This document shows, piece after piece, positions 2,503 to 19,154 of a DNA stretch of 64,000 nt. Positions within the stretch are counted from its first letter, which is position 1. Every line of letters starts with the position of its first letter. The notes below the pieces were generated by a model. That model saw only the letters and a program-made list of their open reading frames with translations, did not search any database and was not told the DNA's origin. Where the stretch lies: positions 62,001 to 126,000 of the forward strand of contig CALZGM010000007.1 in assembly GCA_945787015.1 (NCBI GenBank), given 5' to 3'. The stretch is from an uncultured Roseburia sp. Lineage in GTDB: Bacteria; Bacillota; Clostridia; Lachnospirales; Lachnospiraceae. Both the position numbers and the translations under genes were made by a program.

Positions 2503-3360
2503 TTATGCCACTGCCTTGACCACAGTTCTGGAGATATTGATTGCGGTCTGTGCCGCATAGACTCCGCTCATCAGGTTTGCCTTTGTACTGGTATCCAGAC
2601 CAAACTGTCCGGCAATACGAGGCACTTCTGTGCTGGATAACATCACGCCAAGTCCCAGAAGCGGATGGTCTTTGAACACCATCAAGCCTGCCGTCAGGAT
2701 TGTTGACTGTAAAAAAGCCGTGATACAGATGCCGATGACCTGTTTGCACCACTGCGTGAATCCATCGATATATCCTCTTGGTACGGAGAACATATACAGG
2801 CTTCCAACCGCAATCTGGATTAAGAGGATTCCTCCTCTTTTTAAGTTTGCGAAGAACACTTTGATTACGGCATATCCCATCATGATTGCACAGAATATCT
2901 GCATGATTGGGTTACCAATTCCCAGCATCGATGCTGACATCAGGACCTCTTGTGCTGTCATACCAATGCTTTCTGTATTCGTAATCCCGGAAATAGCCGA
3001 TCCAAAGGAACTTTGAAGGGATACGCACAGTGAATACAGGTTGACCGGCAGAACCGTGAACAGGCTGACTGCCATAAATCCTTTGACATAGTTCAGCGCT
3101 GTATCCTTTACGCTTCCCCTGCCTCCCTGATATTCAATGGCACATTCAAAGGCTCCAACCACAATCCCCACTACAAAAAGCGCCCATCCAAGGTAACTAA
3201 AAAAAGTGGTAATTGCCTGGACCCAAGGCAGGTCAAACAATTCCACTCCCATGTTGTTCATCATGGCAAAAAAATCATTTAAAAATCCGATGATTTTACC
3301 ATATATCCAGTCCACGATCTGGTCTAAGACCGTGCTTGCCACAAAATCAAATATAAACAT
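2503..3360 (-). CDS. VirB6/TrbL-like conjugal transfer channel protein
   Basis: This 285-residue polytopic membrane protein has hydrophobic segments near residues 50-75, 95-113, 150-172, 178-195 and 208-230. Its size, topology and operon position match the TrbL/VirB6 family, which forms part of the inner-membrane translocation channel. A GGTGG ribosome site lies upstream of the ATG. The neighbouring PrgI-like and VirB4 genes support the role. Homology is inferred from topology and context rather than a signature motif. Confidence 0.75.
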   Translation of the reverse strand: MFIFDFVASTVLDQIVDWIYGKIIGFLNDFFAMMNNMGVELFDLPWVQAITTFFSYLGWALFVVGIVVGAFECAIEYQGGRGSVKDTALNYVKGFMAVSLFTVLPVNLYSLCVSLQSSFGSAISGITNTESIGMTAQEVLMSASMLGIGNPIMQIFCAIMMGYAVIKVFFANLKRGGILLIQIAVGSLYMFSVPRGYIDGFTQWCKQVIGICITAFLQSTILTAGLMVFKDHPLLGLGVMLSSTEVPRIAGQFGLDTSTKANLMSGVYAAQTAINISRTVVKAVA

Positions 3361-3394: not shown

Positions 3395-3835
3395 TCAGGG
3401 AATCTGCTGCATTCCGCCATCCTGCTGTTCCTGTGCCAGTGCCATGTCCTGAAAAACAGACAGATAGTTCTCAATTCCAACTGCCAGTTTCTGATAGTCT
3501 GCCTTCCCCGGCTTAAACACATACCATTCGCTTTTTCCATCGCAAGTCCATATATGGGGATTAACACCGTTCTTAAAGTTGGGATTGTTTACCTTCGGTT
3601 TTCCCAAAATATCAGAAAACCGAATCAGCATGCTGTCGACCACTCCCTCCTTTCTGTTGATAACCGAGGTTTTAATTCCTGCATAATGGTCGCAGACACC
3701 AAGCGTTACGAACTCAATTCTGGCACGAAGTTCATCACTGATCGTCCCGTAGCAAAGCCTTCCTACATACTTCTGGTCCTTTAAAACAGTACTTTCTGCC
3801 ATGATTTTTTTTAATTCTGCTTCAAAGAAATTCAT
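3395..3835 (-). CDS. Conserved ICE protein of unknown function
   Basis: This 146-residue soluble protein has no signal peptide or membrane segment. It is mixed alpha/beta, with Trp/Tyr in the C-terminal third (HIWTCDGKSEWYVFKPG) and a Gln/Met-rich tail. AGGAGG precedes the ATG. It sits between the VirB6-like and VirB2-like genes, so it probably belongs to the transfer apparatus or its regulation. I do not recognise a domain. Confidence 0.7.
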   Translation of the reverse strand: MNFFEAELKKIMAESTVLKDQKYVGRLCYGTISDELRARIEFVTLGVCDHYAGIKTSVINRKEGVVDSMLIRFSDILGKPKVNNPNFKNGVNPHIWTCDGKSEWYVFKPGKADYQKLAVGIENYLSVFQDMALAQEQQDGGMQQIP

Positions 3836-3845
3836 GTAGCACCTC

Positions 3846-4184
3846 CTACATTCCGAGAATTTTCCAGATATATGTCGGTGCTGTCAGGGTAAACACAAGG
3901 CAGGCAAACAGAATCGCCGGAGCTGCCCACTCAAACTGGCCGTGTTTTCTGTAATCAAAATATGCAGTACCAAGCTTTGCAAAAAAGAATACTGCGAGGA
4001 TCAGGTCAATTGCCGGAAACACTACTTTATTTACCACGGACTTAATCTGGTCAGAGGCATCGTTCCATGTTCCTTCAATGGCTCCAGCCACATCACCAGT
4101 TCCTGCAGCACATACTGTGGTGCCGAACATAAGAGAGAGTGCAAATACCATAATCATCATTACCATCCATTTCTTTTTCTTCAT
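3846..4184 (-). CDS. Small VirB2/TrbC-like membrane protein
   Basis: The protein has 112 residues: a signal peptide (basic KKKKW start, hydrophobic core, cleavage likely after VCAA), a short extracytoplasmic stretch, then two hydrophobic helices separated by a charged loop (YRKHGQFEW). A signal peptide plus two helices is the layout of VirB2/TrbC conjugative pilins and of small channel proteins in Firmicute ICEs. The ATG at 4184 has AAAGGA eight bases upstream; an in-frame ATG at 4211 has no ribosome site. The pilin function is an inference from topology and operon position. Confidence 0.65.
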   Translation of the reverse strand: MKKKKWMVMMIMVFALSLMFGTTVCAAGTGDVAGAIEGTWNDASDQIKSVVNKVVFPAIDLILAVFFFAKLGTAYFDYRKHGQFEWAAPAILFACLVFTLTAPTYIWKILGM

Positions 4185-4277
4185 CTTTTCATCCTTTCCT
4201 TTTCCGGGCATATCTCAAGCCCATGAAAATAGGCCGCATTACTGCAGCCCTTTTCTTCTCTGTTTTCAGTTACTATG

Positions 4278-6044
4278 TCATCTCGCATTCTGCGGAGCAA
4301 TGTGCCAGTCATCCCATAAATCCCCGGATATCTGAACGGAGTCTGTCAGATTCATACACAGCATTCCATCCGGAGTCCAGCAGTCAAGCAGGTAAGTATA
4401 CACCTTATATTCTCCGTCCGGCATCCAGATAGGCGTAAAATGGGTACGGCGGTTATAGGTTGAATAATGGTTGTTCTGAAATTCAAAGACAGCACCATAT
4501 CCGCTTCTTGTCCTCTCTAACAGCCTCCAGTATGTCTCATAGTAAAACTCTGGGAAATAGCTGACCGCTGTCTGGGGCGGAGTCGTGGCAGAGGACTGGC
4601 TTGTAGATGCCCTTGCATTCACAGTCACATTCACACCATATCCACTTTTTATAGTGGTATCCGTGGCCGTTGGTGACTTCTCATCAGTACTGAGTGTCAT
4701 ATTCCCTGTAAGGGATGCAGAGTACCTGTCTAGGTCAAACTCCCACCATCCCTCATCCACATATTCTCCCTCATCTTCCCAATGCCCGTGGTTGATTGTA
4801 CATCCAACCGGACAGGAATCAGAATGAGAGTCACTATGCCATTGCCAGTCACTATGCCATACCCAATATTCCTTCCACCACGGGCGCCATACGCTCCAAG
4901 CCGCTGAAGTCTTCTGCACATTATCCGGTATAATGGCATTTCCTGCCCGGTACGAGTCATTTCTGTCATCTGCCACAGGATTGGGCGGCGGGTTCTTATC
5001 TAAATCTACGATATTCGCAGTAATGGTTCCCCTGCTTGCACTTCCTCCTCCGCTTACACTGACGCTGATGGTGATATACTGTTCTGTGGATGGCGTATGC
5101 CATTTCACCCATACAAGCTGCTGACCTTCTTCCGGATAATACACATTTTCCACTGTATAGGTGTTTCCAAGAATGGAAAAGGACACGCTTACCGGATGAT
5201 CCGGGTCGCTTTGACCTCCGCTAACGGTTACCGCTGTTACCACATCCGTATTCACCCGGTATTCATAGTCTGCCGCAATCACTTCCGGTGTGATGATTTC
5301 ATTAAACCTTACAATGCCGAGTCCTAACGAACTGATGATATCCTCATCCGATGCTTTATCTGTTTTGGAACCGCCCCACGCCGGATACCCTAAGTCTGAG
5401 GTTTCTAAAAACATGGCGAGCGGCAGGTTCTTATGGGTCAAGGACGGCATCTTTTTTCTGAGCATTCCTCCTCTTATCTGGTTATACTTTGCCGCCTCTG
5501 TTGCAGTGAACGCTGTTCGTACTCCTTCAAATGTCACATAGGCAATCGGTTCAAGCAGAAGCTTATAGTTCCCGTTTGTCAGTGTTTCAAAATCCATGCC
5601 TACATATCCTGCAATCGCCCTTATGACCTGCTCATCCGTAAAATACCGCTTGATGGCTGCCAGATTTGCACCACCGCTTGATGTGCTGATAATCTGGGGC
5701 AGAGGCTGGGCCGGATTGATATAGGTGTAACCGCCCACTCTTGCAGAAAGTCCTGTTCCGTTTTTATAGGCAGTCTTACACACTTGCCCGAAATGCACCT
5801 TGATATCCGAAGGACTTTTATTCGTCAGATCAATTGAGGAAGACACCACACTTCCATCCGATGCATTCACTACAGTAACTCTTACTCCTTCGTCATGGCT
5901 GCTCCAGTAATTCGTACTGGTTCCGCTTCCTAAACTTCCGCCTCCGTTATCAATGTTTCCATCTCCGGTCGCATAGACTGTCATGGGCGCAACTAAGGAA
6001 AACAGCAGAACGGAAAGCAGGAGTGCTTTTCTTATATATTTCAT
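4278..6044 (-). CDS. Large secreted ICE protein with a Trp/His-rich segment
   Basis: The protein has 588 residues with a clear N-terminal signal peptide ending near VYA and no C-terminal anchor. The mature part begins Gly/Ser-rich, continues as beta-rich domains, then has an unusual Trp/His-rich stretch (WSVWRPWWKEYWVW, then HSDWQWHSDSHSDSC) at about residues 378-430 with a Cys-x3-Cys and an SDSHSDSC motif. The C-terminus is aromatic and beta-rich. I do not recognise the family. Export and position among channel and pilus genes suggest a cell-surface or mating-contact factor. GGAGG precedes the ATG, and a strong intrinsic terminator lies just upstream. Confidence 0.75.
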   Translation of the reverse strand: MKYIRKALLLSVLLFSLVAPMTVYATGDGNIDNGGGSLGSGTSTNYWSSHDEGVRVTVVNASDGSVVSSSIDLTNKSPSDIKVHFGQVCKTAYKNGTGLSARVGGYTYINPAQPLPQIISTSSGGANLAAIKRYFTDEQVIRAIAGYVGMDFETLTNGNYKLLLEPIAYVTFEGVRTAFTATEAAKYNQIRGGMLRKKMPSLTHKNLPLAMFLETSDLGYPAWGGSKTDKASDEDIISSLGLGIVRFNEIITPEVIAADYEYRVNTDVVTAVTVSGGQSDPDHPVSVSFSILGNTYTVENVYYPEEGQQLVWVKWHTPSTEQYITISVSVSGGGSASRGTITANIVDLDKNPPPNPVADDRNDSYRAGNAIIPDNVQKTSAAWSVWRPWWKEYWVWHSDWQWHSDSHSDSCPVGCTINHGHWEDEGEYVDEGWWEFDLDRYSASLTGNMTLSTDEKSPTATDTTIKSGYGVNVTVNARASTSQSSATTPPQTAVSYFPEFYYETYWRLLERTRSGYGAVFEFQNNHYSTYNRRTHFTPIWMPDGEYKVYTYLLDCWTPDGMLCMNLTDSVQISGDLWDDWHIAPQNAR

Positions 6045-6104: not shown

Positions 6105-6653
6105 TTAATCCATTATTCCGATCTTGTTGCCATTCTCATACATATCTTCGGCATAAGTTCCGGAACCTTCTCCTTCATCCGGTATCCATCCGAAACCTTC
6201 CACATACACCATACCATCTTTGGTATCTCCGGTCTTGGGCGTTCCGCTATCCGTTGATGGCTGCTGCTCCAGCTCCTTTGTTTCCTCATAAGCTGGCGGT
6301 GTATCCGGATTATCCGTATCTGTTCCTTCCGCTAATGCAGGTGCTTCACTTGGTTTTTCGTCCTCTGTCTTTTCCGGATCAGGCTGGATTTCCTGTTTCT
6401 TGTCATTCACTGTGTTTTCCGTCTGCACCTCGATTACAAAGGGTTCCTCCGTATCCGGCTCTACAGCTTCTGTCTGCGGTGTATCCGGATTTTCCATTTC
6501 GACAGTTACTTTTGTTTCTTCAGTCTCCTGCTCACTCATCTTGGTCTGCGTCACAGGTTCCTTATAAAGTACCCTGCTGATTCCGAAGATGAGTCCGATA
6601 CATACCACTGCAAGCCCTGCGATTACAAGCCATTTTTTTGTCTTTTCCTTCAT
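6105..6653 (-). CDS. Membrane-anchored acidic Pro/Thr/Glu-rich protein
   Basis: This 182-residue protein has one N-terminal membrane helix (about residues 8-27) after a lysine-rich start, then a low-complexity acidic region rich in Glu, Thr, Pro and Asp to about residue 145. A short C-terminal segment reads KDGMVYVEGFGWIPDEG. The layout suggests a membrane-tethered stalk outside the membrane with a small terminal motif. Similar proteins occur in clostridial ICEs without a known role. GGAAGG precedes the ATG. It is separated from the next gene by an intrinsic terminator. Confidence 0.7.
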   Translation of the reverse strand: MKEKTKKWLVIAGLAVVCIGLIFGISRVLYKEPVTQTKMSEQETEETKVTVEMENPDTPQTEAVEPDTEEPFVIEVQTENTVNDKKQEIQPDPEKTEDEKPSEAPALAEGTDTDNPDTPPAYEETKELEQQPSTDSGTPKTGDTKDGMVYVEGFGWIPDEGEGSGTYAEDMYENGNKIGIMD

Positions 6654-6779: not shown

Positions 6780-7301
6780 CTAAAATTTCTCCTTGTAAGC
6801 TGCCCGTACCCTTAGCTTTATTGACATATTTGACACGATTTTTCCGGCGAACCGGACCGGTACCTCCATCGTGATGGATGCATCTGCATAGAAAGTTCCT
6901 CCGGGAGATGCAATAGCCGTATTGGGGATACTTACCTGCAATCCGCTCAGCCGGTATTCCTTTTCCCCGCCGTTATTGATCCGCACATATCCATCCCCGT
7001 CTTCTTCCAGACCGAGTAAAAAGCACAGCCTCCCATAGATATCTCCATAGTCTACACTGGCTTCAAAACCCTCTCCATCCGGCTCATAACCGGCGGCATA
7101 GCCTTCCCGGACACTGTGATAGACCTCATTGTAATTGTCATTTACAGTGGAAATCACGGCAGATTCCATTGCGTCCTTGATTCCGGCTGCGGTAATGACC
7201 AGTCTCATATATTCGCTGATACCAAGAATGATAAGCAGCATCACGATTGTGACTGCCACCGCAAGGGGAACCATACTGCCATTATTGTCCTTCCACAGCA
7301 T
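6780..7301 (-). CDS. TadE/TadG-like pseudopilin
   Basis: The protein has 173 residues with one N-terminal hydrophobic helix after a short polar start (NNGSMVPLAVAVTIVML), then an extracytoplasmic beta-rich domain. A short polar leader, small residues and then a long hydrophobic helix is the design of TadE/TadG minor pilins. Its place next to TadC and TadB fits that role. The ATG at 7301 has GAGGAAGA just upstream; a GTG at 7328 overlapping the previous stop is the alternative start. Confidence 0.65.
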   Translation of the reverse strand: MLWKDNNGSMVPLAVAVTIVMLLIILGISEYMRLVITAAGIKDAMESAVISTVNDNYNEVYHSVREGYAAGYEPDGEGFEASVDYGDIYGRLCFLLGLEEDGDGYVRINNGGEKEYRLSGLQVSIPNTAIASPGGTFYADASITMEVPVRFAGKIVSNMSIKLRVRAAYKEKF

Positions 7302-7324
7302 TCTTCCTCTTTTCAAACACTTTC

Positions 7325-7729
7325 TCACTTCCAGTACACCTCACTTTTTCCGGATGCTCTTGCCCGAATGGTCACGGGGAAAGAACCGAGCCTGCCAAAC
7401 AGTCCCAAGTCTCTTTGCAGCACCAGTGTCACTGTCACCTCCTCATTTAACTGGATGTTTCCGCTAGATGACCAGTACACTTCCGGATGCAGTCCCGTCT
7501 TTTCTTCCAAAACCCTTTGTCTGGTAGCTGTTTCACTTCCTACCCTGCCGCTGATTTCTGCCTCTCTGACCAGTTCATCCGCAAAGTTATCAAGCTGTAT
7601 CTTTGTAATAAAAACAGGAAATACCCTTACACCGAGGGCGATAACTAACATCACGCAGAACACAATGACTGCCACATCGATGTACCCCTCGCCCCTCCTG
7701 TCTTTTAAAATCTTTCTAATCGGTTTCAT
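7325..7729 (-). CDS. Pilin-like protein with RGEGYIDVAV leader
   Basis: The protein has 134 residues: a basic leader of about 10 residues, then RGEGYIDVAVIVF followed by a hydrophobic helix and a C-terminal globular part of about 95 residues. The leader-helix join closely matches that of the small pilin-like peptide at 13450-13680 (RGENYVDTAV), which suggests both are processed by the prepilin peptidase encoded at 12602. It resembles proteins of the DUF4320 type found in clostridial ICEs. AAGGAG lies 6 nt before the ATG at 7729. It overlaps the next gene region by a few bases. Confidence 0.65.
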   Translation of the reverse strand: MKPIRKILKDRRGEGYIDVAVIVFCVMLVIALGVRVFPVFITKIQLDNFADELVREAEISGRVGSETATRQRVLEEKTGLHPEVYWSSSGNIQLNEEVTVTLVLQRDLGLFGRLGSFPVTIRARASGKSEVYWK

Positions 7730-7764
7730 TTTTTCTCCTTCCATGCCGCTTTCCGATTCTTCCT

Positions 7765-8637
7765 TTAGAACATCGTACCCATAGACCTGATGATCTCAAA
7801 GATGATAATGGTGAAATAAGTCGCCAGAAAACAGATCAGCATAACAAAGGAGAACACTCTGATCTTGGGTGGTATCTTTGCCGCTTTCGCTTTCAGTCTC
7901 TGCAGCTCTGCCTGTTTGAAATCATGGGTAAGCATCTGAAAATACACGGCTCCGTCATCACCACGAAGCACACCCACAAGCCCTCTGACCACATCGGATA
8001 ACTGTGGGGAGTTTAAACGTGCTTCAAACCGGGTAAGTGCCGCTTCATAGCTGCTGGATCGCATATCCGCACACACAATATCCAGTTCCTTCCGAAATGC
8101 AGGGCCCGCATTGCCTTTATAGTGTTCTAACATGGACAGCACATCCCTGCTGTTCTTCAATTCCTGCGTAATGGTAGACACGAACCGGTACAGTTCTCCT
8201 TCAATCTGCTCCCTCTTTTCCCGTAGCATTTCCTCTGCTTTCCTAGTTTCCTTGTAGTAGACCATGACTCCTAACAGCACCAGCAGGATCGCAAGCAGTG
8301 GAAACACATATAACGCCGGAATGATCAGTACAAAAATACTCCCGGCCTTTAGATAGGCATATGCCATATAGACTTCCGGCGTCATGCCAAGTCCGGACGC
8401 TGCCAGCACATGGCTCATCCTGCTCCTTTTATATTCATTCATATGGATATAGCCTGCCACTTTGGTCGCGCCGTCCATATACAGGGCATCAATGGTCTTT
8501 GCCAGTTTTTTGTCTTCCCTGCCGGTGTTCATCATGGCCTTGCTGGTTCTAAGGGTCGGCAGTCGGAGAAGTCCTGAGAGAAGCAGGAAAAGACCTATGG
8601 CAAACAAAATAAACACGAATAATAAAATCAGTCTCAT
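7765..8637 (-). CDS. tadC: TadC-like type II secretion F-family protein
   Basis: This 290-residue inner-membrane platform protein of a Tad-type pilus has hydrophobic segments near residues 1-22, 95-125 and 262-285. A cytoplasmic T2SF-type helical domain (about residues 140-260) lies between them and includes NSRDVLSMLEHYKGNAGPAF. In the family, paired TadB/TadC proteins couple the TadA ATPase to pilin polymerisation. It lies directly downstream of the TadB-like gene with a 13-bp gap. AAGGAGG precedes the ATG. Confidence 0.8.
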   Translation of the reverse strand: MRLILLFVFILFAIGLFLLLSGLLRLPTLRTSKAMMNTGREDKKLAKTIDALYMDGATKVAGYIHMNEYKRSRMSHVLAASGLGMTPEVYMAYAYLKAGSIFVLIIPALYVFPLLAILLVLLGVMVYYKETRKAEEMLREKREQIEGELYRFVSTITQELKNSRDVLSMLEHYKGNAGPAFRKELDIVCADMRSSSYEAALTRFEARLNSPQLSDVVRGLVGVLRGDDGAVYFQMLTHDFKQAELQRLKAKAAKIPPKIRVFSFVMLICFLATYFTIIIFEIIRSMGTMF

Positions 8638-8650
8638 ATTTCCTCCTTCT

Positions 8651-9580
8651 CTATGAACGGTATTCTATCGGCTTTGTCAGCTTGACCACATACGCTGCCG
8701 ATACAAAGATGATGATTCCCGTGATGCTTAACATAATCTGACCGGGAATCGTGTGCATTAGGGTGTCATACCATGACTGGTTCAAAAAGTATAAGAGCGG
8801 AATGTTCCCCACTACAAGCAGCACCATCGTGATATATTCCTTTCTTGGCTCAAACACCAGATACTCCAGTTCTGCATTCACGATACGCATATCGGACAGC
8901 TTCGCCACAATCGGTGTTAACGTGGTCTTTAAAGACCTGTCATACAGGCAGGCTTTCAGTGCATCTACCCATTCTTCAAATACATCATTGGCAATCTTAC
9001 CCTTTAAGTCCTCCAGCGCCGACTCCAAATCTGAATCAATGAGCCGGATTCTTGCCACAAAGTCCTGAAACACATTCTTAACCGGCGGATTCAAATATTC
9101 CAGATTTTCCTCCACCGAAGTCAGGATATCCTCACTCCGCAGGTAGGCGGTAGTAATGATGGACAGGGCGGTTTCCAGTTCCGCAGATACGTCCTTTTTA
9201 AAGTGGGAGGCTGTCAGCTTAATATACCAGAACGGCACGAACATAAAGCCTGCCACCGCAACCGGTACTAAAAAGAAGTTCCCGATCATTGCTGCCCCGG
9301 CTGCTCCGGCTGCAGACAAAAGCAGGGATACCGTGCATAACAGCGGAAACATCTCCTCCCGGTCCGTGGATTTTAGGATTTCCTGCACTTCTTCGATTTC
9401 CCTGCGGAAAAAGGACTTCTTTTTCTGCTTCGTTTCCTCCAGTATTTCCTCCCGGATTCCCTTCGGACCGTTCAAAAGCCGGTTGAAGATGTTTCCGGTA
9501 AAATCATGTAACCCTATCCGAAAAACCAGAAAGGAACCGATGATAATGCCTAAGCAGGCCATTACCTGTAATGTCAGCAT
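8651..9580 (-). CDS. tadB: TadB-like type II secretion F-family protein
   Basis: This protein of about 309 residues is the second platform protein of the Tad system. It has an N-terminal membrane helix (LQVMACLGIIIGSFLVF), a cytoplasmic region, two hydrophobic segments around residues 85-125, a T2SF helical domain and two C-terminal helices. The ATG at 9580 is preceded by GGAG at 8 nt and overlaps the end of the ATPase gene by 7 bp, indicating translational coupling. A longer reading frame upstream lacks a better ribosome site. Confidence 0.8.
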   Translation of the reverse strand: MLTLQVMACLGIIIGSFLVFRIGLHDFTGNIFNRLLNGPKGIREEILEETKQKKKSFFRREIEEVQEILKSTDREEMFPLLCTVSLLLSAAGAAGAAMIGNFFLVPVAVAGFMFVPFWYIKLTASHFKKDVSAELETALSIITTAYLRSEDILTSVEENLEYLNPPVKNVFQDFVARIRLIDSDLESALEDLKGKIANDVFEEWVDALKACLYDRSLKTTLTPIVAKLSDMRIVNAELEYLVFEPRKEYITMVLLVVGNIPLLYFLNQSWYDTLMHTIPGQIMLSITGIIIFVSAAYVVKLTKPIEYRS

Positions 9581-10926
9581 GTTTCTTCTCCTTTCGAAAT
9601 TTTTTGCAGCACTTCTTTGGGCATGCCGTTTTCCAGAAACCTCTTTTTCAGGCTCTCGGAAATACCGCATACTTTTTTATGAGTTCCGTTGATGATAAAC
9701 TGATCCCCTTCCACCCGGTTCTCCGTAATCTCATAGCGGTACAGGGAATTAAATTTCCGTTTCCCGTCCCTTGTGATCTCACACTCCATGATTTCCATCA
9801 GCCTTCTTTTTTTGTTTTCTAGCTGCTTGGTGAACACCACGATAGGGAATGCCTCGGTTACCAAGTCCATCAGCACATCATCATCCATATCGTATTTTCT
9901 TTTACACAGCGTCCTCATTCGGCTGTAGGTGCTTTCACAACTGTTACTGTGGATCGTAGTCAGCACGGTATGTCCGGTTCTAGCCGATTCCTGTGCGGTA
10001 TAAGCCTCCGAGCTTCTCATCTCTCCTACACAGATGATTTCCGGGTTGAAACGCAGGGCCATATCAAGGAGCATATCCTGATCGATGTTCTGTTTCTCAT
10101 TCTCGCTGTATCTGGTCAGTGTATGCACAACGCTGTTTGTTACTTTTCCATCCTTTTCCCTAACCAGTGCCAGTTCCCGGCTTCCGTTCTCGATGGTAAA
10201 GATTCGCTTGTTATCGGGAATGGTCGTAAGGAGCCACCCGGCAAGGGTTGTCTTTCCGGAACTTGTGGCACCCGCCACACAGATACTGATGCCATAACGC
10301 AGGCACTCTGCAAGGAAATCCAGCATTTCCCCGGTTGCTGTTCCTCCCTCCACAAAATCCTCTTTTTTCAGATTCTGCGGATTCACGATTCGGATGGAGG
10401 CTGCAATCCCCACATCCTCATCCACCAGTGGTGTCTTTAACACGGCAATACGGATGTTCTTGCTTAAGTGTCCCAATACTGCCGGGGATGCGTTATCCAG
10501 CACCATGCCGGAGACATGGAGCATACGGCGGATTACATTGATGGCATGGTCCGGGGATTCAAAGTGTTCGTCTAGTTTCTCACACCTCCCGTCACTGTAC
10601 TGTACCTCGATATCTTTCCACGAGTTGATATCAATCTCCTCGATGCCGGTTCCGAAGATGTACTTGGTGAGGAAAGAAAACTCTGCCATTTCGGTATAAA
10701 GGTCATCAATGAGCTGCTCCTGTGTCTTTCCTTTTACCGTGATTCGGTAGTCACAGATGTACTTGGTAATGTAACGCTTTACCTGTTGTTTTACTTCTTC
10801 ATTGCCACCCTCCACCATGAGCGTGGAATATTTGCTTGAAATGTATTCCTGTACTTCCTTTAAGACATCGGTAAACGCCCTGCCCTTTTCCTCCGGGGCA
10901 AAGAAGAGACTCTGATTATTTTTCAT
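9574..10926 (-). CDS. tadA: TadA/CpaF-family pilus assembly ATPase
   Basis: This 450-residue secretion ATPase of the TadA/CpaF/VirB11 group is predicted to energise pilin assembly from the cytoplasmic face. Walker A is GATSSGKTTL near residue 218. An acidic Walker-B-type segment IICVGEMRSSEAY follows near residue 300, and a His-box-like GHTVLTTIHSN near residue 320. The N-terminal region contains the usual FGTGIEEIDIN segment. Its ATG overlaps the stop of the CpaE-like gene and has GGAGG upstream. VirB11 conjugation ATPases share the fold, but flanking TadB, TadC, prepilin peptidase and CpaB-like genes support a Tad role. Confidence 0.9.
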   Translation of the reverse strand: MKNNQSLFFAPEEKGRAFTDVLKEVQEYISSKYSTLMVEGGNEEVKQQVKRYITKYICDYRITVKGKTQEQLIDDLYTEMAEFSFLTKYIFGTGIEEIDINSWKDIEVQYSDGRCEKLDEHFESPDHAINVIRRMLHVSGMVLDNASPAVLGHLSKNIRIAVLKTPLVDEDVGIAASIRIVNPQNLKKEDFVEGGTATGEMLDFLAECLRYGISICVAGATSSGKTTLAGWLLTTIPDNKRIFTIENGSRELALVREKDGKVTNSVVHTLTRYSENEKQNIDQDMLLDMALRFNPEIICVGEMRSSEAYTAQESARTGHTVLTTIHSNSCESTYSRMRTLCKRKYDMDDDVLMDLVTEAFPIVVFTKQLENKKRRLMEIMECEITRDGKRKFNSLYRYEITENRVEGDQFIINGTHKKVCGISESLKKRFLENGMPKEVLQKISKGEETC

Positions 10927-11732
10927 ACGCCGAACACCTCCCTGCCAATCTTCTCAATCTCTTTCCGGAATGCCCGGCTTTCTTTCAGACACAGCTCCCC
11001 AAGCATTTCTCCCTCTAAAAACTGTGTTTCCACTTCGCTGCTATATGGAATCTGAAATGCCACATTTCCAAGCACCTGCTCGATATGGCTGCTGGCCTCC
11101 TGCTGTTTTACGTTGGAGGCTACCTTTAACTGTTTGTCTGCATCCCATTTGTTATCCTTAAGCAGGGGAAGCTGGGAGGAAAGGTAGCTTATGGATTTCA
11201 AATCACAGTTCACCAGCCGAAGCACCGTATCCGCTTCCATCAATGCCACCGCCGATAAGATATCCGATGCAATGGTGCTGGTACAGTCAATGATGACAAA
11301 AGGTGCGACATCCCTTGCCTGCTCAATCAGTTCTGCAGCCTGTGTCTGCTCGTAGGGCGGATAGGTGAACACGTTCTCTCCCTTTAACATCCCCACCATC
11401 GACAGGTAATCATTCTTTTTGTAGAACATACAGTTCTTCTTGATGAGATTCTCCGTCACATGTGTGGCTGCAAGGATGCTGCCCAGGGACTTTTCCCCTT
11501 CAAGGTCTGTGGATGCACAGATACAGGGCAGGGGCGGGGTAGTCATGTCAGCAAAAATAAGCAGTACATTGTGTTTCTTTCTGGCCAGGTATTCAGCCAG
11601 TTTCACAGACACCACAGTCTTTCCTGATGCCGGACTGCCCCATACCGCCAGAACACCGCCTTCCGGCTCACTTCTGTTATCTTCTTCCGGTTCCAAATTT
11701 CTCTGGAACAAAGAATTTCTGGTAAAATTCAC
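10923..11732 (-). CDS. CpaE/TadZ-like P-loop ATPase
   Basis: The protein has 269 residues. A deviant Walker A motif (WGSPASGKTVVSVKLAEYL) lies near residues 31-49. The second P-loop features of the MinD/ParA group follow: an aspartate in LLIFADMTTPPLP and VIIDCTSTIASD near residue 150. CpaE/TadZ proteins localise Tad pilus machines at the membrane or pole. The GTG start at 11732 has GGAGG upstream. It overlaps the TadA gene by 4 bp. A ParA-like partition role is less likely because there is no ParB partner nearby. Confidence 0.75.
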   Translation of the reverse strand: MNFTRNSLFQRNLEPEEDNRSEPEGGVLAVWGSPASGKTVVSVKLAEYLARKKHNVLLIFADMTTPPLPCICASTDLEGEKSLGSILAATHVTENLIKKNCMFYKKNDYLSMVGMLKGENVFTYPPYEQTQAAELIEQARDVAPFVIIDCTSTIASDILSAVALMEADTVLRLVNCDLKSISYLSSQLPLLKDNKWDADKQLKVASNVKQQEASSHIEQVLGNVAFQIPYSSEVETQFLEGEMLGELCLKESRAFRKEIEKIGREVFGV

Positions 11733-11735
11733 ACC

Positions 11736-12599
11736 CTATTCCTCCCTGTCTGTCGTTTCTGATTCTTTTGTCTGTCCGGACTCCTCTTCGGTATGACAGT
11801 CCAGATCAGTCTCACCTCCGGACACAGGCACGTCATTTTTTACAACGGATACTTCTTCCTCCTCTGCGGATTCATCCTTAAACATTTCATCTAACACCTG
11901 ATCCTGTGCCTCAATGAACTTCGCTGCCTTTTCACTCTCTCCCCGGTACACCAGTGCCAGATGGATTTCTCCCTCGGCTTCCAGTCTGGCAAGGAGTCTG
12001 CTCTGATCCGGGCGTACCAGTACCGTAACGGTGGAAGGAAGTTCCTTTTCTTCCTCTGACTGTTCCCCCGTATTGGCATCGTAGCCGGATTTGGCAGTCA
12101 CGGCGATGACCTCTACGAATTTTAATTCTGCCGGAATGACGGTTTCTCCGCTGCCGAGATAGTCCGGTGCAATGACGGAGACAATGTCACCGCTCTTTAA
12201 CTTGCCGGACAGTCCTTCCGCAAATGAACTGATGGTGATGGACATGGCCTGTTTTTCCCCATTCAAGCTGTACAAATATTTATTCTCTGCCGCCGGTTCC
12301 TCGGACAATTTCTCTGATACGATATAATCTCCCGCATAAACATCCGCAGTCAGATATTTTCCCTCCACCTCTGCGATGCTTCTGACCACATTTTCGGGCA
12401 GGTTGTATCCGCCTACCTCTACCTCCTGCACCATACTTCTCTTGATCTCCTCGCCTGCCTTTGCAGGTTTTACAAAACGCACGATGGTTGCTTTTTTTGA
12501 CAATCCTGAATTGATTAACGGTGTGATTGCAAAGCAGATCAACAGTGATACTGCAATGCAGAAAATACCAAGTACAGTCCGGTTCTTAAATAATTTCAT
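11736..12599 (-). CDS. CpaB/RcpC-like SAF-domain pilus assembly protein
   Basis: This 287-residue protein has one N-terminal membrane helix (about residues 8-28), then an SAF-type domain at about residues 38-115 (ATIVRFVKPAKAGEEIKRSM, then LTADVYAGDYIVSEKL). A beta-rich domain resembling RcpC/CpaB follows (SGKLKSGDIVSVIAP), with an acidic C-terminal tail. CpaB-type proteins act outside the membrane in Flp pilus assembly. The ATG at 12599 has AGGAGG upstream, overlapping the end of the peptidase gene. In a Gram-positive host there is no secretin, so it may act in the cell wall. Confidence 0.75.
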   Translation of the reverse strand: MKLFKNRTVLGIFCIAVSLLICFAITPLINSGLSKKATIVRFVKPAKAGEEIKRSMVQEVEVGGYNLPENVVRSIAEVEGKYLTADVYAGDYIVSEKLSEEPAAENKYLYSLNGEKQAMSITISSFAEGLSGKLKSGDIVSVIAPDYLGSGETVIPAELKFVEVIAVTAKSGYDANTGEQSEEEKELPSTVTVLVRPDQSRLLARLEAEGEIHLALVYRGESEKAAKFIEAQDQVLDEMFKDESAEEEEVSVVKNDVPVSGGETDLDCHTEEESGQTKESETTDREE

Positions 12600-12601
12600 C
12601 T

Positions 12602-13033
12602 TCAAAAAATTCCTCCTGTTCCGATGCCTAACAGCATCCCAATCCAAAGAAAAGGAACAAGCGGATATGCCTGCTCCTTTCCCGTTTTCGATTTCTTTTT
12701 AATGATTTTTCCCATACTCATGCAAACACCATGCCAGATCAGCATCAGTAATAAGGCGGCAAGCAGTCCGATAAAGGCGGCACGGAGTCCAAGTACTACG
12801 CCGCAGGCTGCAGTCAGCTTCACATCCCCTCCGCCAATACCTCCTGTCGTAATCCCTGCTATCAAAAGCGGCAGGCATGCAAGAAGTCCTAATATACTTG
12901 GCTTTCCCGGCGGGATCAGACTTACGGCTGCCACAAGGCAGGGTATCCAGTCCGGTATGATCCGTTTCCTCACATCAGAAACTGCCGCCAAAGACAGAGC
13001 AAGAAAAAATAAAATCGTTCTGACCATCCACAT
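12602..13033 (-). CDS. Prepilin peptidase, TadV/CpaA type
   Basis: This 143-residue integral membrane aspartyl protease of the A24 family lacks the N-terminal methylase domain of PilD, as is usual for TadV/CpaA. The two catalytic aspartates are visible, in AVSDVRKRIIPDW (about residue 20) and GGGDVKLTAA (about residue 74). It should cleave the leaders of the pilin-like proteins encoded on both sides. The start has no strong ribosome site and follows the SpoVG-like gene by 5 bp, so translation may be coupled. Confidence 0.85.
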   Translation of the reverse strand: MWMVRTILFFLALSLAAVSDVRKRIIPDWIPCLVAAVSLIPPGKPSILGLLACLPLLIAGITTGGIGGGDVKLTAACGVVLGLRAAFIGLLAALLLMLIWHGVCMSMGKIIKKKSKTGKEQAYPLVPFLWIGMLLGIGTGGIF

Positions 13034-13038
13034 CAGAA

Positions 13039-13434
13039 CTACATTCCCATGCTCATGCCGGGGGCGTCTTCCTGTTCCATTCCTTCCTCCGGCTCATCCA
13101 CATCAAGCACCTGAGAGAGAATGCTGTCCTGATAGGCTTTTTGTACGATCTGGTCAAACTGTTCCTTCAGACTCTTGTCAGTAAAAAAGACAGAGTCTTT
13201 ATACTCATCCGTATGGGGCATCTTGGTGCGGGGCATGGTAACCGTCAGCCCGTAGTCATCTTCCTTAATCTTCACGTTACGGATGGTCATGATATCTCCA
13301 ATCTTCACATCCGCAGTTGCAAGGACTCCCCTTTCCGGATTCTGTTCCTTGATAAGCGCCTCCATCTTTAACTGCTCCATGCTGCTTTCCGTTTCGGTTT
13401 CCTGTGTTCTATTCTGATTTGTTGTTCTGGGCAT
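13039..13434 (-). CDS. SpoVG-like protein
   Basis: This 131-residue protein has a SpoVG-type core at about residues 38-108: an ADVKIGDIMTIRNVKIKEDD strand pair, a GLTVTMPRTK segment aligning with the NGLFVAMPS-type core of SpoVG, and a C-terminal helix. SpoVG proteins are small nucleic-acid-binding regulators. A Met/Glu-rich tail (GMEQEDAPGMSMGM) is extra. AGGAGG precedes the ATG. It lies between the pilin-like peptide and the prepilin peptidase, so it may regulate the operon. A second SpoVG-like gene is at 13723. Confidence 0.65.
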   Translation of the reverse strand: MPRTTNQNRTQETETESSMEQLKMEALIKEQNPERGVLATADVKIGDIMTIRNVKIKEDDYGLTVTMPRTKMPHTDEYKDSVFFTDKSLKEQFDQIVQKAYQDSILSQVLDVDEPEEGMEQEDAPGMSMGM

Positions 13435-13449
13435 CTTCGTTTCCTCCTA

Positions 13450-13680
13450 TTAACCTGCGTAGTTGAACATTTCCTGAATTCTCCGGGTAAGGGTAGGCAT
13501 TACCACATCCCCAAACAGTGCATAAAGGCCGGCAAGCAGGAGCGCACCAAGCACTACGGCAATCAGAATCTTGACTGCGGTATCCACATAGTTCTCTCCT
13601 CTTGTGTCCTTCATCAGCATGACAGCCTTTCTTGCTGTTTTCTTTACGTTACCCGTTACTTTCTGCATCATTTTTCTCAT
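13450..13680 (-). CDS. Flp-like pilin peptide
   Basis: The 76-residue protein has a long basic leader of about 27 residues, then RGENYVDTAVKILIAVVLG, a single hydrophobic helix, and a short tail with an aromatic end (MFNYAG). The size and one-helix design fit the major Flp pilin of Tad systems. The cleavage site would be after the Gly of TRG, which places the conserved acidic residue differently from a canonical Flp pilin. GGAGG precedes the ATG. It is encoded near the prepilin peptidase. Confidence 0.65.
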   Translation of the reverse strand: MRKMMQKVTGNVKKTARKAVMLMKDTRGENYVDTAVKILIAVVLGALLLAGLYALFGDVVMPTLTRRIQEMFNYAG

Positions 13681-13722: not shown

Positions 13723-14136
13723 TTACATTCCTGACATTTCCATAGCCTGTCCCTCCGGGGCCTGCTGCATTTCATGGTGTTTTGCCACCGTATTCTGACC
13801 CTGTGCAACCGCCTGTTCATAGGCACCAATCACTGCCTCATGAAGCTTCTGTCTGCATTCTGCCGTGATTGGGAAACAGATATCCTTATACTCGCTTCCG
13901 ACCTTATAGCTCGGCATGGAAACAAATAAACCATTTGTCCCATCAATAATCTTCACTCCGCGGATTGCAAATGCCCCGTTAATGTTCACGGATGCGGTAC
14001 CCTTGATAGAGTCATTCGGCTTAATGGAATGAATGCGGACATCAAACTGAAGCGGCAGTGCATTGGTTCCTCCCATTTCCTGTGCCGTATTCTCTGCCCT
14101 GCTCTGTGTGTTTCTTGTACTTTTTCCTGTTGCCAT
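13723..14136 (-). CDS. SpoVG-family regulator
   Basis: This 137-residue protein has a clear SpoVG core (about residues 28-100): FDVRIHSIKP, GTASVNINGAFAIRGVKIID, GTNGLFVSMPSYK, then a helix ending VIGAYEQAVAQ. SpoVG homologues bind nucleic acid and act as global regulators. A Gln/Met-rich tail follows. The ATG at 14136 has AAAGGAG at 5-6 nt upstream; a longer frame upstream overlaps the YodL gene and has no better ribosome site. Presumably it regulates the pilus or transfer genes. Confidence 0.8.
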   Translation of the reverse strand: MATGKSTRNTQSRAENTAQEMGGTNALPLQFDVRIHSIKPNDSIKGTASVNINGAFAIRGVKIIDGTNGLFVSMPSYKVGSEYKDICFPITAECRQKLHEAVIGAYEQAVAQGQNTVAKHHEMQQAPEGQAMEMSGM

Positions 14137-14152
14137 GTTTCTCCTTTCTGCC

Positions 14153-14695
14153 TTATGGCTGATTGTTTCCCTTGAAAAATTCAATTTCTTCATAGCCTGC
14201 CGGTTCCACATAAAAATAGCGGCTGGTATCTCCATCCGCAAATTCAATCACATCTGATATGGATAATGCATGACCTTTGAAATCTGCCGGAACTTTTCTT
14301 CCAAATTTATCCCAGACAGCTTCCAAATCAAATTTTTCAATCTCTCCTTCATAGACAAGGACATATTCCTCTCTCTGCGGCTGTGCATATCCTCTTTTCC
14401 TTCTCTCTGCCAGACTGACAAACCGCATCATAATCGGACTCTCCTGTCCCAACTGGTAAATCTTTACCGTTCTGCCTTCTTTCGGAGCTTCTCTTTCTTC
14501 AATTTCTCCTCCTTCTGACAAACGGTCATATACCCCTTCCCTGATTTCCACTTCTGCCTGCTCTTTTTCTCTGATGAAGCGGATCAATTCCTCTTTCTGA
14601 AAGAGCGAGTCCAGTATCACGGTTCCACCATGCAGATATCCTGCCGGATTTCCATAGTAGAAAAGGACTCCATTCTGAATAAAAATCTGTCTCAT
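14153..14695 (-). CDS. YodL-domain protein
   Basis: The 180-residue soluble protein has a C-terminal half resembling the YodL domain: YVLVYEGEIEKFDLEAVWDK, then FGRKVPADFKGHALSISDVI with the typical P-x-D-F-x-G-H-x-L-S-x-S-D signature, then a terminal FYVEPAGYEEIEFF. Such domains are common in Firmicute mobile elements; their biochemical role is not established. The N-terminal half is unrecognised. The ATG overlaps the stop of the upstream gene (ATGA). Confidence 0.75.
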   Translation of the reverse strand: MRQIFIQNGVLFYYGNPAGYLHGGTVILDSLFQKEELIRFIREKEQAEVEIREGVYDRLSEGGEIEEREAPKEGRTVKIYQLGQESPIMMRFVSLAERRKRGYAQPQREEYVLVYEGEIEKFDLEAVWDKFGRKVPADFKGHALSISDVIEFADGDTSRYFYVEPAGYEEIEFFKGNNQP

Positions 14696-14970
14696 CCACT
14701 CTCCCCGCTTATGCTGCGAAGATACGGAATCAACTGCTGGTCCAAAAGCATCCTGTCCTCGCAGTATAAAAAAAGTTTGGAAAGCCCAAGCAGGAAAGGC
14801 TCACCGTCAAGCGTATGGATGGTGATAATGCTTCCTTCATGACAGTTTCGGATAAAGTCAGCAATGGAGAGCAGGTTTCCATCCACCAGCATCTGGCTGA
14901 CCTTATCGTCTCTGATTTCAAAAGCCTTGTACTTACTTTCTAACAACCTCTTCCCCTTCCTCCTGTGCAA
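14692..14970 (-). CDS. Small ICE protein of unknown function
   Basis: This small soluble protein is up to 92 residues long, with a helical N-terminus and a C-terminal segment with ITIHTLDGEPFLLGLSKLFL. No domain is recognised. The start is uncertain: the ATG at 14970 has no good ribosome site, whereas a TTG at 14946 lies about 12 nt after AGGAGG. It overlaps the end of the AbrB-like gene. Confidence 0.55.
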   Translation of the reverse strand: MHRRKGKRLLESKYKAFEIRDDKVSQMLVDGNLLSIADFIRNCHEGSIITIHTLDGEPFLLGLSKLFLYCEDRMLLDQQLIPYLRSISGESG

Positions 14971-15226
14971 GTTTCAGGATTCTTGCCGCCAGAGCCACCT
15001 GCTTCTCATGGCTCATGGTCTTTACTGCAGCATTCACATAGGCTTCCACTGCTTCCGGGTCCTGGCTTCCAATTTCCACGATATCCACTTTGACTATGGA
15101 AAGTTTTCCACCACATACGGACAGCTTTAAGATATCACCATATTCCATTTCCGCTTTCTGGCGGAGTTCTTTGGGAATCAGAACCCGGCCCTTCTCATCC
15201 AGAAGCTTATACACCGGCTTTTTCAT
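14933..15226 (-). CDS. AbrB/SpoVT-type DNA-binding protein
   Basis: This 97-residue protein has an N-terminal swapped-hairpin AbrB domain (residues 4-45: YKLLDEKGRVLIPKELRQKA, then YGDILKLSVCGGKLSIVKV). A helical C-terminal half probably makes contacts between subunits. Proteins of this family are dimeric transcription factors or antitoxins; no partner toxin is seen. GAGGAGG precedes the ATG. It overlaps the second AbrB-like gene by 20 bp. Confidence 0.8.
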   Translation of the reverse strand: MKKPVYKLLDEKGRVLIPKELRQKAEMEYGDILKLSVCGGKLSIVKVDIVEIGSQDPEAVEAYVNAAVKTMSHEKQVALAARILKLAQEEGEEVVRK

Positions 15227-15656
15227 CTGTTTCCTCCTCTGTCGCTCGCAATATAATCTTTACCTTATCCTCTGAAACCCCAAACTCCTTGCAGATCATA
15301 AGCAGTTCTTCCGGAATCGGAGTTTCGTCTGCCATCTGGGCAGGCAGGATGATAATCTTTTGTTCCTGACACACAATATCAAGGTCTGCATCCATAGGTA
15401 TCCCTGCATCCTGTAAGAGTTCCTGCGGAATCTGGAATACAATGTTCTGTTCCTTCATCAGTTCCTCTGATGCATCCTGTTCTGCCCTTACGAGCAGAAA
15501 CTCCTTTGATTCATTCTTAAGTTCTTCTTCCTCTGCCATATAAATCAGCTTGACCGCTTCCCCGGTCCGGATGCCTGTCTGCTCTAACATCACCGCAGGA
15601 ATTTCGATGCACCCTTTCTCATTCAACTTTCCTTCCATCTCCACTAACTGAAGCAT
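15207..15656 (-). CDS. AbrB-like regulator with two beta-hairpin modules
   Basis: The protein is about 149 residues. Two similar modules follow each other: residues 1-45 (LVEMEGKLNEKGCIEIPAVM, TGIRTGEAVKLIY) and about residues 63-100 (IVFQIPQELLQDAGIPMDAD, LDIVCQEQKIIIL). Both have the AbrB/MazE hairpin pattern of a 'resist or accept' strand followed by LxxxGI. The C-terminus is a helical tail. The ATG at 15656 is preceded by GAGAGGAAGG; it overlaps the methylase C-terminus by 38 bp in another frame. The role is likely transcriptional regulation of the element. Confidence 0.65.
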   Translation of the reverse strand: MLQLVEMEGKLNEKGCIEIPAVMLEQTGIRTGEAVKLIYMAEEEELKNESKEFLLVRAEQDASEELMKEQNIVFQIPQELLQDAGIPMDADLDIVCQEQKIIILPAQMADETPIPEELLMICKEFGVSEDKVKIILRATEEETDEKAGV

Positions 15657-16674
15657 GTCCTTCCTCCTCTCTTTCCTCCGGACTCTCGTCCGAATTTGCT
15701 GCCGTATCCTGTAATCCTGTCGGGGCTTCCCTTCCCCGCCAGAGAGAGCCTTTTGATTCCCCGTACAGTTCAAACAGGCTCATCTGCACCGGCAGACTGT
15801 TGCGTCTTTCATTCATGTCATAGTTGGCGATCAGCACCTCCGGATACTCACAGCCATTGTCATACCTCTGTGCAAGGTTGTTGATCCGCTTTACCGATTC
15901 AATCTGAAAGTCCTGATACAGTTCTCTGATATATTCACAGTCGTTATAGGACACCATAAATTTTCCTTGAATGCCTGCAAGGGTATCCCGAAGCCTCACA
16001 TGATCCTCTTTCCTAAACACCACCTCATAGTGTCCTTCCGTTTCAAAATACGGTGGATCGCAATAAAAAAAGGCATTCGGTCTGTCGTACTGACGGATGA
16101 GTGCCTCAAAATCTTTATTTTCTATGACTGTATCTTTCAGTCTTCGGTTCGCCTCCCATATGATGGTAAAGGTCTTTCGGATGTCAAAGGGCTGGCAGCC
16201 ATAGGAAGTACATCCGCTTCCGTAGCTGTATCGGATGATCTTATAAAAAGCCGCAGCCCTCTGCACATCTCCAACCTTTGCTCTCTCCATCAGAATTTGC
16301 CTGATTTCTTCTGCCTCCGGCTCTTTCAAAAAGTGTGTGGCAATCTCCAGTTCCTCAGAGAGATGCTCACTCTTGAATTCTTCCATCGTCAGAAATTTCC
16401 GCAGGGTTACAAATTCATCCCTTGAATTCAAGGGAAGGAAAGCCAGTTCTTTTAAAAGTGCCATCGGTCTTTCCTTGACACAATAAAAGAGGTTTGCAAG
16501 ATTCGAATTGAAATCATTGTAAACCTCCATGCATTTATCCGGCGGCTTTCCGAATAGAACCCAGCCGCCTCCACCGAATACTTCTATGTACCGGTCATAT
16601 TCTGTGGGCATGCGCAGGTAAATCAGATCACGGAGTGCTTTCTTACCGCCTACCCAACTGATGATGCTGTTCAA
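15619..16674 (-). CDS. D12-class DNA adenine methyltransferase
   Basis: The 351-residue N6-adenine methyltransferase resembles Dam. The AdoMet-binding FxGxG-type motif is VFGGGGWVLF near residue 34, the catalytic motif is CDPPY near residue 202, and the N-terminus SIISWVGGKKALR is the usual motif X. No restriction endonuclease is adjacent, so it is best described as an orphan methylase that may protect element DNA from host restriction or mark it. The start is TTG with GGGAGG 6-7 nt upstream. The final ~35 residues look like an extension reading over the AbrB gene start. Confidence 0.9.
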   Translation of the reverse strand: MNSIISWVGGKKALRDLIYLRMPTEYDRYIEVFGGGGWVLFGKPPDKCMEVYNDFNSNLANLFYCVKERPMALLKELAFLPLNSRDEFVTLRKFLTMEEFKSEHLSEELEIATHFLKEPEAEEIRQILMERAKVGDVQRAAAFYKIIRYSYGSGCTSYGCQPFDIRKTFTIIWEANRRLKDTVIENKDFEALIRQYDRPNAFFYCDPPYFETEGHYEVVFRKEDHVRLRDTLAGIQGKFMVSYNDCEYIRELYQDFQIESVKRINNLAQRYDNGCEYPEVLIANYDMNERRNSLPVQMSLFELYGESKGSLWRGREAPTGLQDTAANSDESPEEREEEGHASVSGDGRKVE

Positions 16675-16751
16675 TTTTTATCCTCCCTCCTTTTCTTAGG
16701 GCACACATTACTACAGACTTCTTCAGATATCTAGCAGAACTTTTCCACATT

Positions 16752-18987: not shown

Positions 18988-19012
18988 TTTTCTTCCTCCT
19001 GTTCTTTTGACA

Positions 19013-19056
19013 ATAAAAATGGCGGTACCTATTTCATTTCTAAAATAAGTACCGCC
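19013..19056 (-). terminator. Leader hairpin / attenuator upstream of the ICE operon
   Basis: On the minus strand GGCGGTAC and GTACCGCC pair across a 20-nt AT-rich interior, with extra pairing of the inner AAAT/ATTT. A U-rich stretch (ATTTTTATT) follows. It ends about 25 nt before the start codon at 18987. An orphan AGGAGG lies upstream at 19088-19093 (minus strand). It could be an attenuator controlling the operon or an ordinary terminator. Confidence 0.5.
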
Positions 19057-19154
19057 TCACATATTCATCTGCAATTTACTTTTGTTTCCTCCTCTCTTTT
19101 TTCTCAAATCACTCCAACACCTCGTTTTTACCCCACTGCATCTATAAAAATGGG

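Follow-up and report, generated by a model that had tools for sequence, protein, structure and literature searches.

The window analyzed here is a stretch of 64,000 nucleotides (C7:62001-126000, where C7 is the contig) from a 3.3-Mb draft genome of an uncultured Roseburia sp. Its first 19 kb resemble the right end of a conjugative element in which the genes of a Tad pilus machine adjoin those of a type IV secretion system (T4SS). The Tad machine, which consists of TadA, TadB, TadC, CpaE, CpaB, a prepilin peptidase, a Flp-like pilin and two pseudopilins, occupies positions 13680-6105 on the minus strand, and its genes continue unbroken into VirB2-, VirB6-, PrgI- and VirB4-like genes (Table 1). 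All genes from a SpoVG gene (14247) to the gene for the VirB4 N-terminal domain (1585) point in the same direction, and no gap between them is wider than 126 bp. The Tad, pilin-like, PrgI-, VirB6- and VirB4-like genes claimed in the initial annotation are thus all present, on the minus strand and in one unbroken run. The Tad block reaches beyond the edge given there: it continues to a DUF6550 gene and to a gene for a secreted protein of 588 aa, called p588 below.

Table 1. Genes of the Tad block, the T4SS and the adjoining backbone of the conjugative element in the window.
Feature	Position	Strand	Evidence and remarks
Flp-like major pilin DUF6133, 76 aa	13450..13680	-	PF19629 E 1.4e-38
SpoVG-like protein	13039..13434	-	PF04026; between Flp and prepilin peptidase genes
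Prepilin peptidase TadV	12602..13033	-	PF01478 E 2.6e-11
CpaB/RcpC	11736..12647	-	PF16976 E 2.8e-15
CpaE/TadZ-like ATPase	10923..11732	-	AAA_31 E 8.7e-9
TadA/CpaF motor ATPase	9574..10926	-	PF00437 E 3.9e-26; Walker A GATSSGKTT
TadB platform protein	8651..9670	-	No T2SSF match; named by position, length and family conservation
TadC platform protein	7765..8637	-	T2SSF E 6.6e-4 (below curated cut-off); gene order
DUF4320 pseudopilin	7325..7744	-	E 1.3e-36; RG/ExYID signature
TadE/G-like pseudopilin	6780..7328	-	PF13400 E 0.053 (weak, below Pfam cut-off)
DUF6550 protein of the Tad block	6105..6653	-	PF20187 E 2.2e-29
p588, secreted, 588 aa, possible adhesin	4278..6044	-	Between DUF6550 and VirB2/DUF3852; missed in the initial annotation
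VirB2-like DUF3852 protein	3846..4211	-	PF12963 E 5.1e-46; TrbC/VirB2 E 0.0013 (below cut-off)
146-aa protein of the T4SS block, without family	3395..3835	-	Pfam and NCBIfam scans negative
VirB6-like TrbL_5	2503..3360	-	PF19511 E 1.3e-144
PrgI/VirB3-like membrane protein, 92 aa	2141..2419	-	No Pfam or NCBIfam match; named by position and conserved gene order
Separate VirB4 N-terminal domain, 197 aa	1585..2178	-	Aligns to VirB4 model positions 97-288, E 1.8e-5
VirB4 ATPase, 611 aa	-243..1592	-	NF045975 E 8.9e-89 (below its cut-off); AAA_10; TraG P-loop
Right-hand backbone: SpoVG, YodL, AbrB-like, Dam methylase, ArdA and p203 genes	13723..18987	-	Largely common to the Tad-less element G106

The Tad-system components CpaE/TadZ (AAA_31) and CpaB/RcpC (PF16976) are both present. 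The candidates for tadB and tadC are two neighboring membrane-protein genes at the expected place; the family match of TadC is weak and TadB has none. The start listed for TadB overlaps tadA, and the real start is probably further in. SpoVG-like genes flank the Flp gene, one on each side. On the T4SS side, VirB4 is split into two genes, one for the 197-aa N-terminal protein and one for the 611-aa ATPase. The latter covers positions 285-893 of the VirB4 model and runs 243 bases past the left edge of the window. The same split gene pair occurs in three relatives without Tad genes (G106, G248 and G388).

The surroundings of this cassette in other genomes were analyzed with p588, and not a Tad protein, as the query. 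In a collection with one genome per species, 379 of 417 pattern-matched stretches encode a p588 relative. The locus counts refer to the best 80 of these 379 loci, in which several genomes are represented more than once, and they therefore concern the nearer relatives. Among the 56 loci with at least 8.5 kb of upstream sequence, TadA, TadB and TadC are found upstream of p588 in 52, the prepilin peptidase, CpaB and CpaE in 51, the TadE/G-like pseudopilin in 54, DUF4320 in 53 and Flp in 48. Downstream of p588, VirB2 and VirB6 occur in 49 of the 52 loci with at least 9 kb on that side, PrgI in 44 and VirB4 in 35. In one of the 17 loci scored without VirB4 (L067), the gene is known to lie just outside the 10 kb examined. 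The collinear order Flp...TadA...p588-VirB2-VirB6-PrgI-VirB4 is recurrent across Clostridia.

The same linkage is seen from the side of the motor and of the channel. A search of 200 genomes of the host's family gave 12 TadA places (E <= 1e-60). Ten of them have VirB4 within 30 kb, and the two others are cut by contig ends (G016 is a short contig; G013:C22 stops just after VirD4). In 391 class-level genomes, TadA lies within 16 kb of 13 of the 20 full-length TrbL_5 places. The six plasmid records with p588 (E <= 1e-5) are the same six that have this TadA (E <= 1e-40), and VirB4 was found in all five of them that were examined. The initial annotation had held that the link would be accidental if Tad genes were rarely found with VirB4 in related elements. 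These counts reveal no such rarity, and the linkage between Tad and T4SS is not accidental.

Some records with the cassette deserve separate mention. The commensal Muricomes intestini DSM 29489 has two of the loci (L067 and L068), and in the locus of Roseburia inulinivorans DSM 16841 (L051) the reading frame of VirB4 seems to be interrupted. Multi-kb immunoglobulin-like domain proteins are also annotated on Clostridioides plasmids with the Tad block (L134/L139 and L138), which may combine a pilus with a large surface protein. The cassette occurs as well in metagenome-assembled genome (MAG) records titled Thermoplasmatales archaeon and Nitrospirae (L106 and L088); L106 is probably misbinned, since it is 99.98% identical to Anaeromassilibacillus DNA (L107).

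The companion protein p588 has no family in Pfam, NCBIfam or PHROG scans. Its conservation is high, with a mean column identity of 56% over 10 sequences and 71% over 40. In the 200 genomes of the host's family it accompanies 11 of the 12 TadA places, the twelfth being on a contig of only 8,957 bp. The class-level sample contains 45 non-fragment TadA places, two TadA fragments having been left out. Here p588 lies within 20 kb of 19 of the 20 places where TadA is at least 50% identical. Among the 25 places below 50%, 11 have a partial match, which concerns the C-terminal part and mostly proteins of ~1,000 aa, and 14 have none. The pairing is missing from many distant TadA places, so that p588 is restricted to the nearer relatives. 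Four fecal contigs that are deposited without annotation under the name 'Bacteriophage sp.' (H13-H16; MT839299, MT838517, MT835617 and MT839819) also encode pieces of p588, and for this reason are probably conjugative elements and not phages.

The processing signals of the pilins are conserved. The class III signal of short Flp pilins has Gly at -1 and Glu at +5. DUF6133 and DUF4320 have in common the pattern R-G/E-x-Y-[IV]-D (the slash separates positions -1 and +1), with Asp and not the usual Glu at +5. In the Flp-like DUF6133, Gly occupies -1 in 57 of 65 rows; at +5, 54 of the 65 rows have Asp and 2 have Glu. DUF4320 has Gly at -1 in 79 of 86 rows and Asp at +5 in 77 of 86, while the TadE/G-like pseudopilin has Gly at -1 in 83 of 86. 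Both catalytic Asp columns of the prepilin peptidase are invariant (70/70 rows), as is the Walker A Lys of TadA (76/76 rows, one of which is the host's chromosomal TadA). These data bear on the idea that the block is a secretion device, a pseudopilus that exports or displays p588 or another protein without forming a long pilus. The presence of p588 with 19 of the 20 near TadA relatives would fit such a device, and a platform with an ATPase is type II secretion-like too. However, p588 has a Sec-type N-terminus of its own, as judged by inspection, and the block encodes a Flp-like major pilin with a conserved processing site; we regard a mere secretion device as extremely unlikely.

TadA evolves under purifying selection, with a ratio of nonsynonymous to synonymous substitution rates (dN/dS) of 0.024-0.049 in four pairs, similar to the 0.025-0.039 of VirB4 in two pairs; synonymous sites are near saturation and these ratios are therefore rough. 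The Tad-bearing elements are mobile between hosts. A stretch of 39.7 kb is common to two genera (G046 and G149) with one mismatch and one gap (99.99% identity). Another, of 10.8 kb, is 99.95% identical in [Clostridium] viride (Oscillospiraceae) and Caproiciproducens (Acutalibacteraceae), in both cases on long contigs. A 13-kb contig assigned to Sinanaerobacter, a genus of another order, has the latter stretch at 99.94-99.96%; this match could be contamination because the contig is so short. Finally, 21.6 kb are 97.7% identical between a Tepidanaerobacteraceae MAG and Pelotomaculum.

The Tad block is a module that is exchanged between unrelated T4SS backbones. VirB4 proteins were grouped at 40% identity by single linkage, and the block accompanies seven of the eight resulting groups; the VirB4 of the window is 22-28% identical to those of the other groups. 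The TadA proteins of G046a and L068 are 74% identical, whereas their VirB4 proteins are only 22% identical. The VirB4 of G046a scores above the cut-off of the CD1110 family and that of the window below it. In a quick tree of TadA, in which long branches are flagged elsewhere, G046a groups with three window-type rows with a support of 94 in the Shimodaira-Hasegawa-like approximate likelihood ratio test (SH-aLRT), and G164, with a VirB4 of 829 aa that is 24% identical, pairs with L102 (SH-aLRT 99, starred). Two distant Tad blocks (TadA 36-48%) also lie with a VirB4, which is above the CD1110-family cut-off in G324 and long in G463.

Relatives of the window T4SS without Tad genes show what else may stand beside VirB2. 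In G388 a sortase and a 1,842-aa SpaA-repeat protein immediately precede VirB2. In G248 two sortases lie ~6 kb further off, together with one thioester-domain/SpaA protein and another protein of the LPXTG type. In G106, with a T4SS and backbone of the window type (VirB4 62%), no Tad gene, p588 or sortase was found within the 40 kb examined. TrbL_5 occurs in 24 of 195 genomes of G248's family, and 20 of the 24 full-length places entered the count; three others and G620, which lies at a contig start, stand outside it. Sortases were detected with a profile built from three of them, and five of the proteins, plus that of G317, were also confirmed by Pfam. Tad/p588 is present in seven of the 20 loci and a sortase in ten. 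Two loci have just a protein that ends in LPRTGY (705 and 2,374 aa) and one (L177) has neither Tad/p588 nor sortase or LPRTGY protein upstream; no locus has both kinds. A sortase and/or an LPRTGY-ending surface protein is thus present in 12 of the 20. The end of p588 is at most 0.6 kb from VirB2 in 7 of 7 loci, and the protein with a terminal LPRTG is at most 1.1 kb from VirB2 in all 11 loci that have one.

No sortase was found in the best 80 of the 379 p588 loci, where ~10 kb upstream, mostly Tad itself, were examined. The 20 class-level TrbL_5 places comprise, besides the 13 with TadA, G545, where p588 lies at a contig start, G248, G388 and G317, which are of the sortase type, G524:C63, which has a terminal-LPRTGY protein, and two that were not classed. 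The Tad/p588 block and sortase adhesins occupy the same slot beside VirB2, and in most Tad-less relatives sortase-dependent surface proteins stand in place of Tad.

Three of the giant surface proteins were scanned and contain 15-17 SpaA domains; one also has a thioester domain. The giant SpaA-repeat proteins (L172, L173, L179-L185; e.g. L173:12892-18480) carry LPRTGY or LPRTGH at the extreme C-terminus, without a hydrophobic tail after the sorting motif, and have a dedicated sortase adjoining.

Two alternative explanations have to be measured against this exchange. According to the first, the Tad motor and platform belong to the DNA translocation path, with TadA as a substitute for the missing VirB11 in a PAPI-1-like chimera. 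Tad and VirB11 motors do fall into one ATPase group (PMC12019362), VirB11 is absent from Gram-positive T4SSs, and a chimeric channel has been proposed for PAPI-1 (PMC12857230). Yet the close T4SS relatives G106, G248 and G388 persist without any Tad gene, and sortase systems can substitute for Tad; a role in the translocation path is very unlikely. The second holds that the block is passenger cargo, an adhesion or colonization pilus that serves the host and has mobile elements just as its vehicle. It is in line with reports that Tad is the commonest on plasmids among the type IV filaments compared (PMC6668835) and that a tad plasmid of Cutibacterium acnes was interpreted as a possible colonization factor (PMC5696575). 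Cargo usually lies at variable sites, however, while the Tad block has a fixed place beside VirB2, accompanies several T4SS backbones and gives way to sortase adhesins at that very place. A colonization adhesin could in principle be swapped likewise, but overall we consider cargo an unlikely explanation.

The block is tied to the transfer operon and remains intact while moving with it; it accompanies different channels as one unit, and adhesins can take its place in situ. For these reasons it is best read as a mating-contact module. In our view it is probably a Tad (type IVc) pilus cassette of the monoderm kind, complete and reserved for conjugation, a function that we infer from these features. 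The idea of mating contact, already put forward in the initial annotation, is strengthened by the sortase-dependent surface proteins in the slot of most Tad-less relatives. In the mechanism that we propose, the donor's own prepilin peptidase would process the Flp pilin, and the TadA motor, acting on the TadB/TadC platform, would extend a thin pilus through the wall and also retract it. CpaF in Caulobacter has been reported to retract pili, and Tad motors to extend and retract them. At the surface p588 would be the recipient-binding component; retraction would pull donor and recipient together, and the separate VirB4/VirB6/PrgI/VirD4 channel would then transfer the relaxase-bound DNA. The pilus, which transfer would need in this scheme, would have a role similar to that of the PrgB-type adhesins of other Gram-positive elements and of the thin pili of IncI plasmids and PAPI-1. 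We lean slightly towards the broader view that a large family of clostridial integrative and conjugative elements (ICEs) and plasmids possesses such a Tad pilus, driven by its motor and dedicated to mating, in which p588 binds the recipient, and that pilus and sortase-linked giant adhesins are interchangeable at the VirB2 slot of T4SSs that are alike in other respects. This suggests that some Gram-positive bacteria make pili for mating.

Several observations speak against a dedicated mating pilus. Among the Tad genes, that of the prepilin peptidase is under the weakest constraint (dN/dS 0.21-0.31), and G106 has a T4SS of the same type but, in the 40 kb examined, no Tad block and no sortase. 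The Tad and sortase states require just three changes on the TrbL_5 tree; the exclusion therefore rests on about three switches and not on 20 independent loci. TadA is missing in 4 of the 56 p588 loci, of which L082 and L115 are interrupted by insertion sequences, L087 is truncated and L126 rearranged, and downstream of p588 all five T4SS genes are missing in 3 of 52 (L056, L057 and L069). No p588 match was found within 20 kb of 15 of the 45 class-level TadA places, all but one of which are below 50% identity. PLSDB types all six p588/TadA plasmids as non-mobilizable; the annotation of three of them includes a MobP2 or MobP3 relaxase and that of two a pLS20-type transmembrane protein. No intact VirB4 was found with the distant Tad blocks of G238 (55 kb, with a VirB4 fragment only), G470 (the whole 57-kb contig) and G346 (40 kb). 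Finally, p588 has an apparently Sec-type N-terminus and no pilin motif that would account for its joining the pilus.

The closest functional parallels are found in Gram-negative bacteria, whose mobile elements are known to use conjugative type IV pili for contact. The ICE PAPI-1 of Pseudomonas aeruginosa and the IncI plasmids R64 and TP114 also encode a type IV filament, which serves contact between donor and recipient; as in these elements, the filament genes of the window are encoded by the conjugative element itself. In pilin mutants of TP114, transfer is reported to be abolished in broth and almost abolished in the mouse gut, but not on a solid support (PMC9045228), and the PAPI-1 pilus has been proposed to recognize the lipopolysaccharide of the recipient (PMC5297154). 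Those pili are of type IVb. Homology to type IVb pili was not found in the window, where the components are of the Tad type (PF16976, DUF6133, CpaE-like); the block is type IVc and monoderm, with other pilins and another presumed adhesin.

In Gram-positive bacteria, linear plasmids of C. acnes combine a tad locus with VirB4 and TcpC. A putative pilin was found in surface fractions and appendages were observed, and the authors leave a link between pili and conjugation open (PMC5696575). These plasmids differ in being actinobacterial, and were likened to the window block by description only. The same holds for a Sulfobacillus region (pL15/pY0017 type) with MinD-, TadA- and TadB/TadC-like genes beside a relaxase, TraG and VirB4. 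Its genes are termed homologs of both the T4SS and the type II secretion system; in contrast to our reading, the part of the paper available proposes no mating role for the Tad genes (PMC6803676). PrgB-type and LPXTG adhesins are likewise surface contact factors encoded by the element (PMC12857230). The sortase/SpaA blocks of the Tad-less relatives are of the same general kind, i.e. wall-anchored adhesins in contrast to a motor-driven filament. The CD1110/CD1115-type clostridial elements resemble the window element in its CD1115 VirD4, and Tad blocks also occur with a CD1110 VirB4 (G046a and G324); the split VirB4 and TrbL_5 of the window, however, represent another lineage.

A linkage of tad and conjugation genes is thus already described for single plasmids, as in the C. 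acnes and Sulfobacillus papers. In the literature covered, which excludes most subscription papers and all preprints, no description was found of Tad as a module that recurs in the conjugative elements of Clostridia. For this reason we consider as new a conjugative type IV filament of the Tad type, in monoderm bacteria and interchangeable with sortase systems, with a presumed mating function. If this is true, it is a Gram-positive counterpart of the conjugative pili of IncI and PAPI-1, contrary to the position taken in review that Gram-positive systems do not encode conjugative pili. A mating pilus could explain how the elements reach recipients in moving gut content, as the TP114 pilus does. 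Its pilin, motor and p588 would be handles to see and block conjugation in commensals, and the alternation of pilus and sortase adhesin on one type of channel would be a natural experiment on what mating contact needs.

To the left of the window, the same contig encodes an NlpC/P60 protein, a MobP3/MobL relaxase with Sel1 repeats, a primase-like protein and a CD1115-family VirD4. In a profile search of contig C7, the MobP3 relaxase was found with E 1.6e-118 and the VirD4 above the cut-off of the CD1115 family. A relaxase, a type IV coupling protein (VirD4) and VirB4, the combination that marks an ICE, are therefore all on this contig. The label ICE is likely correct, for an element that is incomplete here because a search of the contig for integrases gave zero PF00589 or PF07508 matches. 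No exact repeats longer than 14 bp were found between window positions 18700-20600 and C7:1-62000, and the left end of the element may lie beyond the contig. On the right, a tRNA uracil methyltransferase gene (19234-20505) appears to start the chromosome and is perhaps the integration site. The truncated copy L087 likewise stops near such a gene (L087:5692-7128).

About 17-34 kb to the left of the window, on the same strand and adjoining the conjugation genes, lies a biosynthetic cluster (L009:8450-18505 and L008:1447-3120). It encodes a polyketide synthase (ketosynthase-ketoreductase-acyl carrier protein), an acyltransferase, FolE2, a PTPS/QueD-like protein, a radical SAM protein, a phosphopantetheinyl transferase and a NusG-like protein; this polyketide-type cluster may be cargo of the element. 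Further right in the window, an open reading frame at 51655-52697 opens FabD-like, as judged by reading, and continues into the C-terminal part of FabH, with an NMO-type fragment preceding it; the hybrid is a deletion or an assembly collapse. An ordinary thiamine pyrophosphate (TPP) riboswitch precedes a membrane protein gene at 53218-53319.

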